Origin: Terriglobia bacterium
Lineage (GTDB): Bacteria; Acidobacteriota; Terriglobia; Bryobacterales; Bryobacteraceae
NCBI GenBank assembly: GCA_010084195.1
Contig: RGPS01000002.1
Coordinates: 40,116-104,115, forward strand
DNA length: 64,000 nt
Direction: 5' to 3'
The position numbers were made by a program, and so were the translations under genes. How positions within the stretch are numbered: position 1 is the first letter of the stretch; each line of letters begins with the position of its first letter. The notes under the pieces are model-generated. The model saw nothing but the letters and a program-made list of their open reading frames with translations, had not been told where the DNA came from and did no database searches. This document shows positions 22,992 through 26,682 of the stretch, piece after piece.

Positions 22992-24395
22992 ATGCTTCGG
23001 GTTGGGAAATACGCCGCTCTGGCGGGCCTGCTTTGTGTTGCGCCCGCTGCGGCACAAACGGTGGATACAACAGCCTTACAGGGTAATGCGGACAAACTGA
23101 TCCAGGCAGCCCTCCGGGACCAGGCAGGCCTCGACCGCCTCGAATACCTCTGCTACCGCATTGGCAACCGCCTGAGCGGCTCGAAAACCCTGGAGACGGC
23201 AGTTTCCTGGGCCGAAGCGGAGATGCGTCGCATCGGCCTCGACAACGTCCGCCGGGTACCCACGAAGGTCCCGCACTGGGTTCGGGGGAAAGAATCGGCC
23301 AGCCTGGTTCTCCCCGCCGAAAGACCACTTCACATGCTGGGCCTGGGCGGCAGTGTCGCAACACCGAAAGGTGGCATAACGGCTGATGTTGTGGTGGTTT
23401 CGAACTTCGACGAACTGGACAAGATGGGCAAGACAGCCGTGTCCGGCAAGATTGTGGTTTATGATGTCCCGTTCGTTAGTTACGGCCAGACCGTTCCGTA
23501 TCGTGGCAGCGGAGCGTCTCGCGCCGCGAAACTGGGTGCCGTGGCAGCCCTGGTCCGCTCGGTAACGCCCCGCAGCCTCAGAGATCCCCATACGGGGGCC
23601 ATGCGCTACGCAGACGACGCCCCAAAGATCCCGACTGCGGCCATTTCCGTGGAAGATGCCATGTGGCTGCACGGTCTCGCCCGGATGGGTGAAAAGCTCC
23701 GGGTCCATCTGGAAATGGAAGCACACACGGAGCCGGACGCGGACTCTGCGAACGTGATGGGCGAGCTTCGCGGCCGCGAGCTTCCAGACGAAGTAGTTGT
23801 CATCGGCGGACACCTCGATTCCTGGGACGTAGGCCAGGGCGCGCATGATGACGGCAGTGGCGTGATTGCCGCGCTGCAGGCCCTCGCCCTGATGAAGCAA
23901 CTGGGGATCCAGCCACGTCGTACGATTCGCGTGGTGTTTTGGGTGAATGAAGAAAATGGCGGTCGGGGTGGACAAGCTTACCGGCAATGGGTGGGCGAGG
24001 AAATCGGTCACCAATATGCTGCCATTGAAATGGATGGCGGGGCCGAACGCCCGGTTGGCTTTGATCTTGCGAGTGCGCTCTCCCAACGCCGCAGTCCCGC
24101 CTCCGGCGCTCAGCCTCCGCGGATGCCTCCCCTGTTCGAGGCCAGGGTACGGGCCATTGGCCGCATGCTGAAGGGAATCGGGGCCGACCGGGTGGAGCGC
24201 GGCGAGGCAGAAGCAGATATCCAGCCTCTGGTTGCCGCAGGCGTTCCAGGCCTCGGCCTCCGAACCGTCGGGGAACATTACTTCGATTACCACCACACAG
24301 AAGCGGACACGCTCGACAAAATCGTCCCCGATGATTTCCGCAAGTGCCTTGCCGCTATGGCGGTAATGAGTTACGGCCTGGCCGAACTGAATTAA
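22992..24395 (+). CDS. M28-family zinc metallopeptidase
   Basis: VVIGGHLDSWDVGQGAHDDGSGV, VFWVNEENGGRGG, EHYFDYHHTEADTLDKI. Confidence 0.9.
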   Translation: MLRVGKYAALAGLLCVAPAAAQTVDTTALQGNADKLIQAALRDQAGLDRLEYLCYRIGNRLSGSKTLETAVSWAEAEMRRIGLDNVRRVPTKVPHWVRGKESASLVLPAERPLHMLGLGGSVATPKGGITADVVVVSNFDELDKMGKTAVSGKIVVYDVPFVSYGQTVPYRGSGASRAAKLGAVAALVRSVTPRSLRDPHTGAMRYADDAPKIPTAAISVEDAMWLHGLARMGEKLRVHLEMEAHTEPDADSANVMGELRGRELPDEVVVIGGHLDSWDVGQGAHDDGSGVIAALQALALMKQLGIQPRRTIRVVFWVNEENGGRGGQAYRQWVGEEIGHQYAAIEMDGGAERPVGFDLASALSQRRSPASGAQPPRMPPLFEARVRAIGRMLKGIGADRVERGEAEADIQPLVAAGVPGLGLRTVGEHYFDYHHTEADTLDKIVPDDFRKCLAAMAVMSYGLAELN

Positions 24396-25249
24396 CCCGC
24401 CGTTAGTTCCGCGTAAACTTTGGCCCGGAGATTCGCCACACCTGCTGTGTAGCGATCATCGGCGACTGCAAAGGCAACCGCATCCTCCAGCCAGTCGTGC
24501 CAAAGGCCGTCGGGATCGTGCGAGGCCACGGTAATCGTGTAGTCACCAGGGCAGAGTTCGCAAACGAACCGGTACGAGACACTCAAAACGGAGCCCCCGC
24601 TTACTGGCCCCGGATGTAATTGTTCAAGCTCCGTATTGGTGCCGTAAACGTTCAGCCCGGAGCGGGTGCGGATCAGGATCCCGACCACAGGGTTCTCCAC
24701 CGCGGCAAGATACCGGAAGGTCACCCGGACCGACACAGCCTCACCACTTCGCCAGACCGTGGACGCCGCACCAGTACTCCCCGCCAACTCAATGGATACG
24801 AGTTCTGCCCGACCATCCCCCTGACGCCTGACCGGGGCAACCTCGGGGACGCCCGCTTCACCCGACTGCCGAAGCTCCCGTGCCGCATGGTGGCGGTAAG
24901 CGGGAAGAATCTCGGCAGGATGTCCCTGACCAACCAGCTTTCCGTCGCGCAGCCACCAGATCTCATCCGCACATTGCGCCAGAAGCCCTTCGTCATGGCT
25001 GAGAAGTATCACGCTGGAACCGGCCCTGCGGAGAGACTCCACCTGAGAGATGCCGCGAGCAACCGCAACTCTGGACATGGTGGAGAAGTAGTGGTTCAGC
25101 AAAAAGTCCCCGGTTACGGCGGGCAGAGGCTGATCGGAGGTCAGCACCGCGCAGCGAACCAGCTCCGCGAGGCCTGGAAGACCCTCTTCGATCACCCCAA
25201 TCACACTCCCCGGGGGGGCTGTCAGGTTTAGTTCCGGAATTACAATCAT
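24392..25249 (-). CDS. Wzt-like protein: degenerate ABC NBD lacking Walker A and signature, plus Wzt C-terminal carbohydrate-binding-like domain
   Basis: Retains SSVILLSHDEGLLAQCADEIWWLRDGKLVGQGHPAEILPAYR (H-loop/D-loop side). The P-loop position reads GVIEEGLPGLAELV. C-terminal domain has GGSVLSVSYRFVCELCPGDYTITVAS. Confidence 0.72.
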   Translation of the reverse strand: MIVIPELNLTAPPGSVIGVIEEGLPGLAELVRCAVLTSDQPLPAVTGDFLLNHYFSTMSRVAVARGISQVESLRRAGSSVILLSHDEGLLAQCADEIWWLRDGKLVGQGHPAEILPAYRHHAARELRQSGEAGVPEVAPVRRQGDGRAELVSIELAGSTGAASTVWRSGEAVSVRVTFRYLAAVENPVVGILIRTRSGLNVYGTNTELEQLHPGPVSGGSVLSVSYRFVCELCPGDYTITVASHDPDGLWHDWLEDAVAFAVADDRYTAGVANLRAKVYAELTAG

Positions 25250-25806
25250 TCGGTCCGAGGCTCCGCCAGTTCAAAGGACGCCAAATCGTCCCACCGGCCA
25301 ATTGCGACATTTTGGACGAACGAAAGCAGCCGCACGCTGAAGGCTCGGGAGCCAGTCCAGGTTGCCCAGATCCTGCGCGCTGTTTCCGCCAGATGCTGCA
25401 CGGTCTCAGCGTCAAAATCCTGCGCCAGCGTGACGTGAGGATGGAATGGATACGGGCAGATATGTTGCAGCAACCCGGAATTCATGCCGCCATGTAACGC
25501 ACGGACCTGCGATCCCCCCCTCTGAAGCCCCAGATAAATGACATTAGAGACAGGAAACACTTCAATCTCACCCAGCACCACGTCGAATGTCTGCAGAGCC
25601 GAACTCATGCTTCGCAGATCCCGGACCGCATCCTCGACAACACCTGAAAAAGGTCGGGGAGGCAAAACGGTCAGGTGAGCGTGTGGGTTGCAACCAGGAG
25701 TCAACTGGAGGCGGAGATCATCGAGAAATGATGCAAGGGGTTCGGGAATGTAACTGACAAGCGCGTACTGGTTGAGAGTGCGCCCGGTCCCCTGGTGACA
25801 GTCCAT
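25246..25806 (-). CDS. 2H phosphoesterase / 2'-5' RNA ligase family protein
   Basis: CNPHAHLTVLPPRPF and CPYPFHPHVTLAQDF (two HxT-type motifs). Confidence 0.8.
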   Translation of the reverse strand: MDCHQGTGRTLNQYALVSYIPEPLASFLDDLRLQLTPGCNPHAHLTVLPPRPFSGVVEDAVRDLRSMSSALQTFDVVLGEIEVFPVSNVIYLGLQRGGSQVRALHGGMNSGLLQHICPYPFHPHVTLAQDFDAETVQHLAETARRIWATWTGSRAFSVRLLSFVQNVAIGRWDDLASFELAEPRTE

Positions 25807-25833: not shown

Positions 25834-26682
25834 CTACGGCAGGGCAGAAACGCCAGGCCCTGAGGCCCCGCCGGTCGGCGCGGGGGCAGGCGGACGCGCG
25901 GAATTCCGAAGATTGACGGTGCGGTTCAGGATGTCGAACCAGAAGGGGGCCCCCAGCGAAACGGCTACGGTAGTCAGTGCCCAACCCACCACGCGGCTGG
26001 CCCAGCCAAGCGGCCCTACATGAAACGACTCCGGACTCCAGCCAAGCACCGGCCCAAGGTCAAGCAGCGTCCCGGGTCGCATGGCACGAAGGTTCGGCTC
26101 ATTCCAGAAACGCTGCAGAAGGTGAAGGGTGTCGGCGTTGGTTGCAATTGTCACCAGCGAAGCCAGTACCAGATTCCACACCTGCGCCCGGCGTCGATAC
26201 CACCCGGACGCCCGCTCCATGGTGTCGTTGAACCAGTTTTCGATGTTGGCCTGCGCCCGCGCCAGATCCCCCTCCGTGTTCTGTATCAGAGCCAGCAGCA
26301 CCCGTCGCACGGGCCCGCCCGGCAGCCTGGCAATTCCGGCTTCCAGATCGTGAAATCCGACCGAACCCTCAACATGCGACGTCGCCAGATCAATCAGCGC
26401 CGCTGAAAAGGCCCGCGACGGCAGATACGAGAAGTGTTCGCCGGTTCGCTTTTGACCGCTGACAACCGGATGGTGGTAGAAGGCACTGAGCAACTCCGTA
26501 CCCTCCTCAAGCACCTGGCCGCGAAAAATCGAAGCCATCGCCCTTTTGAAATTTTCAGCCCGCGCATCCAGAGCGTGGGCGATCCACTCATTTACTGCAC
26601 TGCAAAAGAGCGCGAGGATCAGATACACCGATGCCGCGCCCACCATCGCTTCCAGAACCGTGGAACCGAATAATCCAACCAT
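25834..26682 (-). CDS. Conserved membrane protein of unknown function
   Basis: LEAMVGAASVYLILALFCSAVNEWIA N-terminal TM, internal TMs, single long ORF. Confidence 0.65.
   Translation of the reverse strand: MVGLFGSTVLEAMVGAASVYLILALFCSAVNEWIAHALDARAENFKRAMASIFRGQVLEEGTELLSAFYHHPVVSGQKRTGEHFSYLPSRAFSAALIDLATSHVEGSVGFHDLEAGIARLPGGPVRRVLLALIQNTEGDLARAQANIENWFNDTMERASGWYRRRAQVWNLVLASLVTIATNADTLHLLQRFWNEPNLRAMRPGTLLDLGPVLGWSPESFHVGPLGWASRVVGWALTTVAVSLGAPFWFDILNRTVNLRNSARPPAPAPTGGASGPGVSALP

Follow-up and report, generated by a model that had tools for sequence, protein, structure and literature searches.

A conserved Wzt paralogue of the Bryobacteraceae lacks the ATPase site and may read methyl-capped glycans

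The window (the whole stretch of 64,000 nucleotides analyzed here) encodes a Wzt paralogue, termed pseudo-Wzt, whose sequence suggests that it gave up ATP-driven transport and probably reads methyl-capped glycan ends in the cytoplasm, independently of ATP. The gene is no decaying copy: an old part was put to a new and lasting use, in a single event within a soil acidobacterial lineage. Wzt joins cap reading and ATP burning in one chain, of which pseudo-Wzt appears to keep only the reader, with the pattern of constraint inverted. It is therefore a natural protein for studying cap reading apart from transport, and it makes the role of the carbohydrate-binding domain (CBD) in trans directly testable.

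Domain make-up, predicted structure and cap pocket of the window protein

The pseudo-Wzt ORF is intact, starts with ATG and runs from 25249 to 24392, its first 4 bp (25246–25249) overlapping the stop of the upstream LigT-like gene. An earlier reading of this DNA (the sequence-only reading) had described an intact, 4-bp-coupled ORF without stating its strand, which is minus. Pfam searches identified a Wzt_C domain (PF14524) at residues 141–273 (E = 1.6e-31, 109.7 bits against a cut-off of 30.4), as expected from the Wzt-type C-terminal domain proposed at that stage, and returned no ABC_tran (PF00005) match in the window protein. Curated ABC-ATPase models match only residues of about 50–130, from the Walker B end to the end of the nucleotide-binding domain (NBD), and the top phmmer match in the PDB is full-length Aquifex aeolicus Wzt, over residues 72–261. 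The N-terminal 130 residues of pseudo-Wzt are an ABC NBD remnant, and the peptide earlier quoted as a preserved C-terminal NBD half corresponds to residues 78–119, inside the stretch matched by the ABC-ATPase models.

At the Walker A position the window protein reads G18-VIEEGLPGLAELV, where EEGLPGLAE does not match the motif GxxGxGK[ST]; in orthologues such as L051 the same position reads GIIGENGSGKSRLL. In the Walker B strand, N52 stands in place of the Asp and H53 in place of the catalytic Glu, and alignment shows that the signature and helical-domain region are missing. Alignment with intact Wzts thus agrees with the earlier description of a shortened middle without P-loop, signature or Walker B acids. 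The H-loop His (H85), not singled out before, is present, and the H-loop helix spans residues 87–93. Since this helix and the hinge helix are both retained, the protein still has the NBD surface used for CBD docking. What belonged to the ATP site and the helical domain has been lost or cut down, and the intact NBD that powering Wzm requires is missing.

Features of the pseudo-Wzt locus, in window coordinates
Feature	Residues	Coordinates	Strand	Basis or remark
pseudo-Wzt gene (ATPase-dead Wzt paralogue, P0001)		24392..25249	minus	285 aa ORF, Pfam, orthologues
2'-5' RNA ligase / LigT-like phosphoesterase gene		25246..25806	minus	upstream, 4-bp overlap
Walker A position, degenerate, GVIEEGLPGLAELV	18-31	25157..25198	minus	alignment
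Walker B strand remains, DFLLNHYF	48-55	25085..25108	minus	alignment, model
H-loop (SHDE, His85 kept) and H-loop helix	84-93	24971..25000	minus	PDB match, model, alignment, PMC9445017
Hinge helix	111-129	24863..24919	minus	model, alignment, PMC9445017
Wzt_C carbohydrate-binding jelly roll	141-273	24431..24829	minus	Pfam, alignment

AlphaFold monomer models of the window protein (pLDDT 94.2, pTM 0.83) and of the P-loop-bearing orthologue L051 (pLDDT 93.2, pTM 0.81) both place a jelly roll after a reduced α/β NBD core, so that the NBD fold, whose absence from a predicted structure would have spoken against the sequence-only reading, is there. The top PDB matches in Foldseek are the full-length Wzt chains of Aquifex WzmWzt, and a stretch of 69 columns aligns structurally with true NBDs (CbiO, BtuD) at 1.1–1.3 Å. 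Whole-chain TM-scores are 0.37–0.42, low values that are expected because the helical domain is missing and the relative placement of the domains in the monomer model is uncertain. Taken together, the E-values, the 71 orthologues described below and the 94-pLDDT model exclude chance.

Among the closest known systems is A. aeolicus Wzt (PDB 8dku, 7k2t; CBD with 3-O-methyl-D-mannose, 8dky). In this protein Asn313, His350 and the backbone of Ile299 hold the cap sugar, 3-O-methyl-mannose, and Leu300, Thr346, Ala348 and Trp362 form the methyl pocket (PMC9445017). The CBD dimer straddles the hinge helix, whose Tyr233 touches the glycan and completes the pocket; a CBD loop carrying Arg302 docks on the H-loop helix and the hinge helix of the NBD, the H-loop helix making up half of the CBD docking face (PMC9445017). 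At the contact positions, the aligned residues of the window protein are I191, L192, R194, N205, T240, A242, H244 and W253. Six of these (R194, N205, T240, A242, H244 and W253, at the positions of Arg302, Asn313, Thr346, Ala348, His350 and Trp362) are identical to Aquifex in 71 of 71 orthologues, an invariance that argues strongly, at the level of sequence, for the glycan recognition proposed earlier. The His350 position is His in only four of the 24 intact Wzts compared. Several pocket residues are kept in ordinary Wzts too, and so would point to retained binding rather than to a special ligand. Equivalents of Tyr233 and of the trap-loop His355 are not conserved, the former position being Arg in 49 of the 71 orthologues (Arg119 in the window protein) and the latter Pro (Pro246).

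Pseudo-Wzt thus has in common with Aquifex Wzt the cap-contact residues of the CBD, the linker, the hinge helix, the H-loop helix and the domain order. Unlike it, pseudo-Wzt has no Walker A, Q-loop/helical domain, signature, catalytic Glu or linked Wzm, and carries Arg in place of Tyr233 in the hinge.

The orthologue family and its inverted constraint

Orthologues were sought in 61 near genomes and in the GTDB species collection, nearly all genomes compared being metagenome assemblies. They occur throughout the window's genus, widely in the Bryobacteraceae (Acidobacteriota) and in three genomes of a neighboring family of the same order. Within the order, 130 of 200 genomes carry pseudo-Wzt; in a phylum-wide sample of 297 genomes it was found in the window's family only, which speaks against a wide spread in the phylum. 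The ORF is intact across dozens of genera, with an internal stop in a few relatives (e.g. G155 and G206).

We aligned 71 orthologues with 24 intact Wzts. The orthologues form one clade apart from the intact Wzts (support 100/100, the bootstrap not being fully settled), and pseudo-Wzt may have parted from the sister Wzt that is still intact. This sister, Wzt-A, is an acidobacterial clade comprising the closest intact relatives found, with about 31–44% identity over the shared part. It has the same domain order as pseudo-Wzt and differs from it in having all ATPase motifs intact, a better conserved NBD than CBD, and Gln at the His350 position.

Walker A, the Walker B Asp, the catalytic Glu and the H-loop His are all present in each of the 24 intact Wzts. 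Among the 71 orthologues the catalytic Glu is found in none, the Walker B Asp in 39 and the H-loop His in 58, and the signature/helical region is absent from all. The distance from the Walker A Lys to the Walker B Asp is 105 residues in 24 of 24 intact Wzts, compared with 0–56 (mode 43) in the orthologues. A strict GxxGxGK[ST] survives in 13 orthologues, most of which also have the Walker B Asp, and in one further member this position is cut by a contig end; no P-loop occurs in the window's genus. According to the alignment, the helical domain, signature and catalytic Glu had already gone in the ancestor of the family; the P-loop was lost later, and probably more than once, in lineages that include the window's genus. 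A Trp-Trp pair follows the H-loop helix in 67 of 71 orthologues, where intact Wzts mostly have other residues. Orthologues with intact motifs had been named earlier as a sign that the window gene might be a one-off degraded copy: a P-loop does turn up in 13 members, but none is an intact ATPase, and with all 71 in one clade the gene is not a one-off.

Selection on pseudo-Wzt is purifying. Because dS is saturated among the window's nearest relatives, estimates of omega rest on closer pairs from other lineages. For moderately diverged, unsaturated pairs (dS 0.3–0.9: L051/L053, L052/L055, L058/L072 and L083/L085), omega is 0.14–0.18 in the NBD part and 0.05–0.12 in the CBD; one very close pair (L015/L016), with few changes, gives 0.40 and 0.08. 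CBD identity exceeds that of the NBD remnant in 99.8% of pseudo-Wzt pairs (means 0.66 vs. 0.43), whereas all pairs of the sister Wzt show higher identity in the NBD than in the CBD (means 0.67 vs. 0.49). The same reversal is seen in pairs of genomes that carry both proteins. A varying CBD would fit an exporter that follows variable O antigens, and a constant CBD one fixed ligand.

Genomic context of pseudo-Wzt, Wzt-A and Wzm

The LigT-like gene lies directly upstream of pseudo-Wzt at about a third of the loci checked in the genus and at none of those checked outside it. The 4-bp coupling is real, but a functional tie was rejected since the linkage is confined to part of the genus, and the LigT-like protein is probably not a partner. 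Farther upstream, at 25834–26682 on the minus strand, is a predicted membrane protein that is conserved in close relatives only and has no match in Pfam or NCBIfam.

Outside the window's genus, a SAM methyltransferase gene stands head to head with pseudo-Wzt in 31 of 44 loci (those with at least 1.5 kb upstream) and is usually followed by a right-handed β-helix gene. In these genomes pseudo-Wzt is also often faced, in convergent orientation, by a circularly permuted ATP-grasp type 2 gene (e.g. L054:6895-8259, and similarly in L057, L060, L068, L071 and L091). In the window's genus the methyltransferase does not adjoin pseudo-Wzt, and in the window's genome it lies on another contig, C1. There the methyltransferase and the right-handed β-helix are fused in one open frame of 789 aa (L156:4527-6896, G000 C1), the β-helix half beginning with a signal-peptide-like stretch.

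No wzm gene adjoins pseudo-Wzt, the nearest ABC2_membrane gene being about 34 kb away on the same contig (C2:29501-30130). This contig also encodes a Wzm (C2:1224-2393) with 51% identity to the Wzm linked to Wzt-A in outgroup families, where Wzt-A follows Wzm and a glycosyltransferase in an exporter operon. The window genome's Wzm has an extra N-terminal domain and directly follows a methyltransferase-domain ORF (the two at L157:91-2396, G000 C2), and no Wzt lies beside it.

The window's genome encodes Wzt-A on contig C618 (L106:6607-7836), directly behind phage-tail-like genes. This arrangement, with DUF2460 and Phage-tail_3 genes immediately upstream and the usual Wzm elsewhere, recurs within the family, in the window's genus and in some further genera (L106:1882-7836 on G000 C618, L110, L116, L123 and L124); the upstream genes at L123 include a non-contractile tail sheath TIM-barrel protein. 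Among the 200 order-level genomes, both pseudo-Wzt and Wzt-A occur in 107, pseudo-Wzt alone in 23, Wzt-A alone in 22 and neither in 48, giving an odds ratio of 10 for an association that is confounded by shared descent. The genomes with pseudo-Wzt only, notably those of genus g37 (all of its sampled pseudo-Wzt bearers), rule out a strict need for Wzt-A.

Candidate functions

In Aquifex, Wzt in its apo state binds glycan where CBD and NBD meet and lets it go once ATP is bound; in vivo, CBDs can reportedly function in trans (PMC9445017). In pseudo-Wzt the parts that serve the ATP sandwich and Wzm coupling, namely the catalytic motifs and helical domain, are gone family-wide, and the CBD with its cap pocket is both kept and most constrained. 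The protein would dimerize through strand-swapped CBDs, by analogy with other Wzt CBDs, and its ligand would be the methylated end of an undecaprenyl-linked polysaccharide. With no ATP cycle to eject the glycan, pseudo-Wzt would stay in the glycan-binding, apo-like state, and could read, hold or deliver lipid-linked glycan with a methyl cap. More speculatively, capped chains might be passed to a Wzm exporter in trans or withheld from it, or their cap status might be reported. The divergent methyltransferase at 31 of 44 loci outside the genus and the methyltransferase-domain ORF upstream of the genome's Wzm favor such a reader; the unlinked methyltransferase in the window's genus, the lack of a wzm beside the gene and the unconserved His355 and Tyr233 equivalents count against it. 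A broader version, which we put forward tentatively, is that the family constitutes a long-conserved class of ATP-independent cap readers in which the half NBD serves as a fixed lid of the CBD, licensing or policing cytoplasmic chains that bear a methyl cap, and doing so without Wzt-A in some genera.

Two alternatives would give pseudo-Wzt a place in known machinery. As an accessory subunit of an ABC exporter, it would pair through its CBD with the Wzt-A encoded on C618, mixed dimers widening or restricting the range of substrates and the mini-NBD acting as an adapter. The co-occurrence of the two proteins in the order, the ability of CBDs to act in trans (PMC9445017) and the presence on the window's contig of a Wzm related to the outgroup partner of Wzt-A are consistent with this. 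We nevertheless regard it as rather unlikely, given that genus g37 and others keep pseudo-Wzt without Wzt-A, that shared descent confounds the association, and that the CBDs differ in a cap-contact residue (His350 in pseudo-Wzt, Gln in Wzt-A). Alternatively, the CBD might sense the capped glycan and the mini-NBD signal to, for example, the methyltransferase, setting chain length or cap level. Such a regulator would account for the conserved head-to-head methyltransferase outside the genus, often with the β-helix protein, and for an NBD remnant that has its own Trp-Trp signature and is under purifying selection, but pseudo-Wzt has no effector domain, the window's genus does not encode the supposed partner beside it, and we consider this role unlikely.

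A nucleotide ligand is improbable. It would be bound, as ATP or another nucleotide, by the P-loop-bearing mini-NBDs, of which the window's genus would carry a derived, ATP-free form. The 13 orthologues with GxxGxGK[ST], most of them with the Walker B Asp, and the confidently predicted fold of L051 suggest as much, whereas the catalytic Glu and signature occur nowhere in the family, and with the P-loop lost in most members nucleotide binding cannot be the shared function. Decay, to which the lost catalytic motifs, the fast-diverging NBD and the internal stops of a few relatives might point, is highly improbable in view of an ORF intact over dozens of genera, an invariant CBD pocket and a high-confidence fold; as a one-off event it is ruled out by the orthologue family, its single clade and omega values well below 1, so that the sequence-only reading was justified in not calling the gene a decaying one. 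The reading of pseudo-Wzt as an ATP-independent cap reader is the one we prefer.

No description of such a family, or of Wzt in Acidobacteria, was found in the searchable literature. Mann et al. 2019 (Mann, Kimber and Whitfield; Glycobiology 29:822), reportedly surveying the CBMs associated with ABC transporters, may cover related cases. Degenerate-site ABC exporters retain a complete NBD fold, helical domain included, that forms one half of an ATP sandwich. Pseudo-Wzt resembles these exporters, examples of which are reviewed elsewhere (PMC7756269), in having an ABC NBD without the catalytic Glu, and is unlike them in that half of its NBD is deleted.
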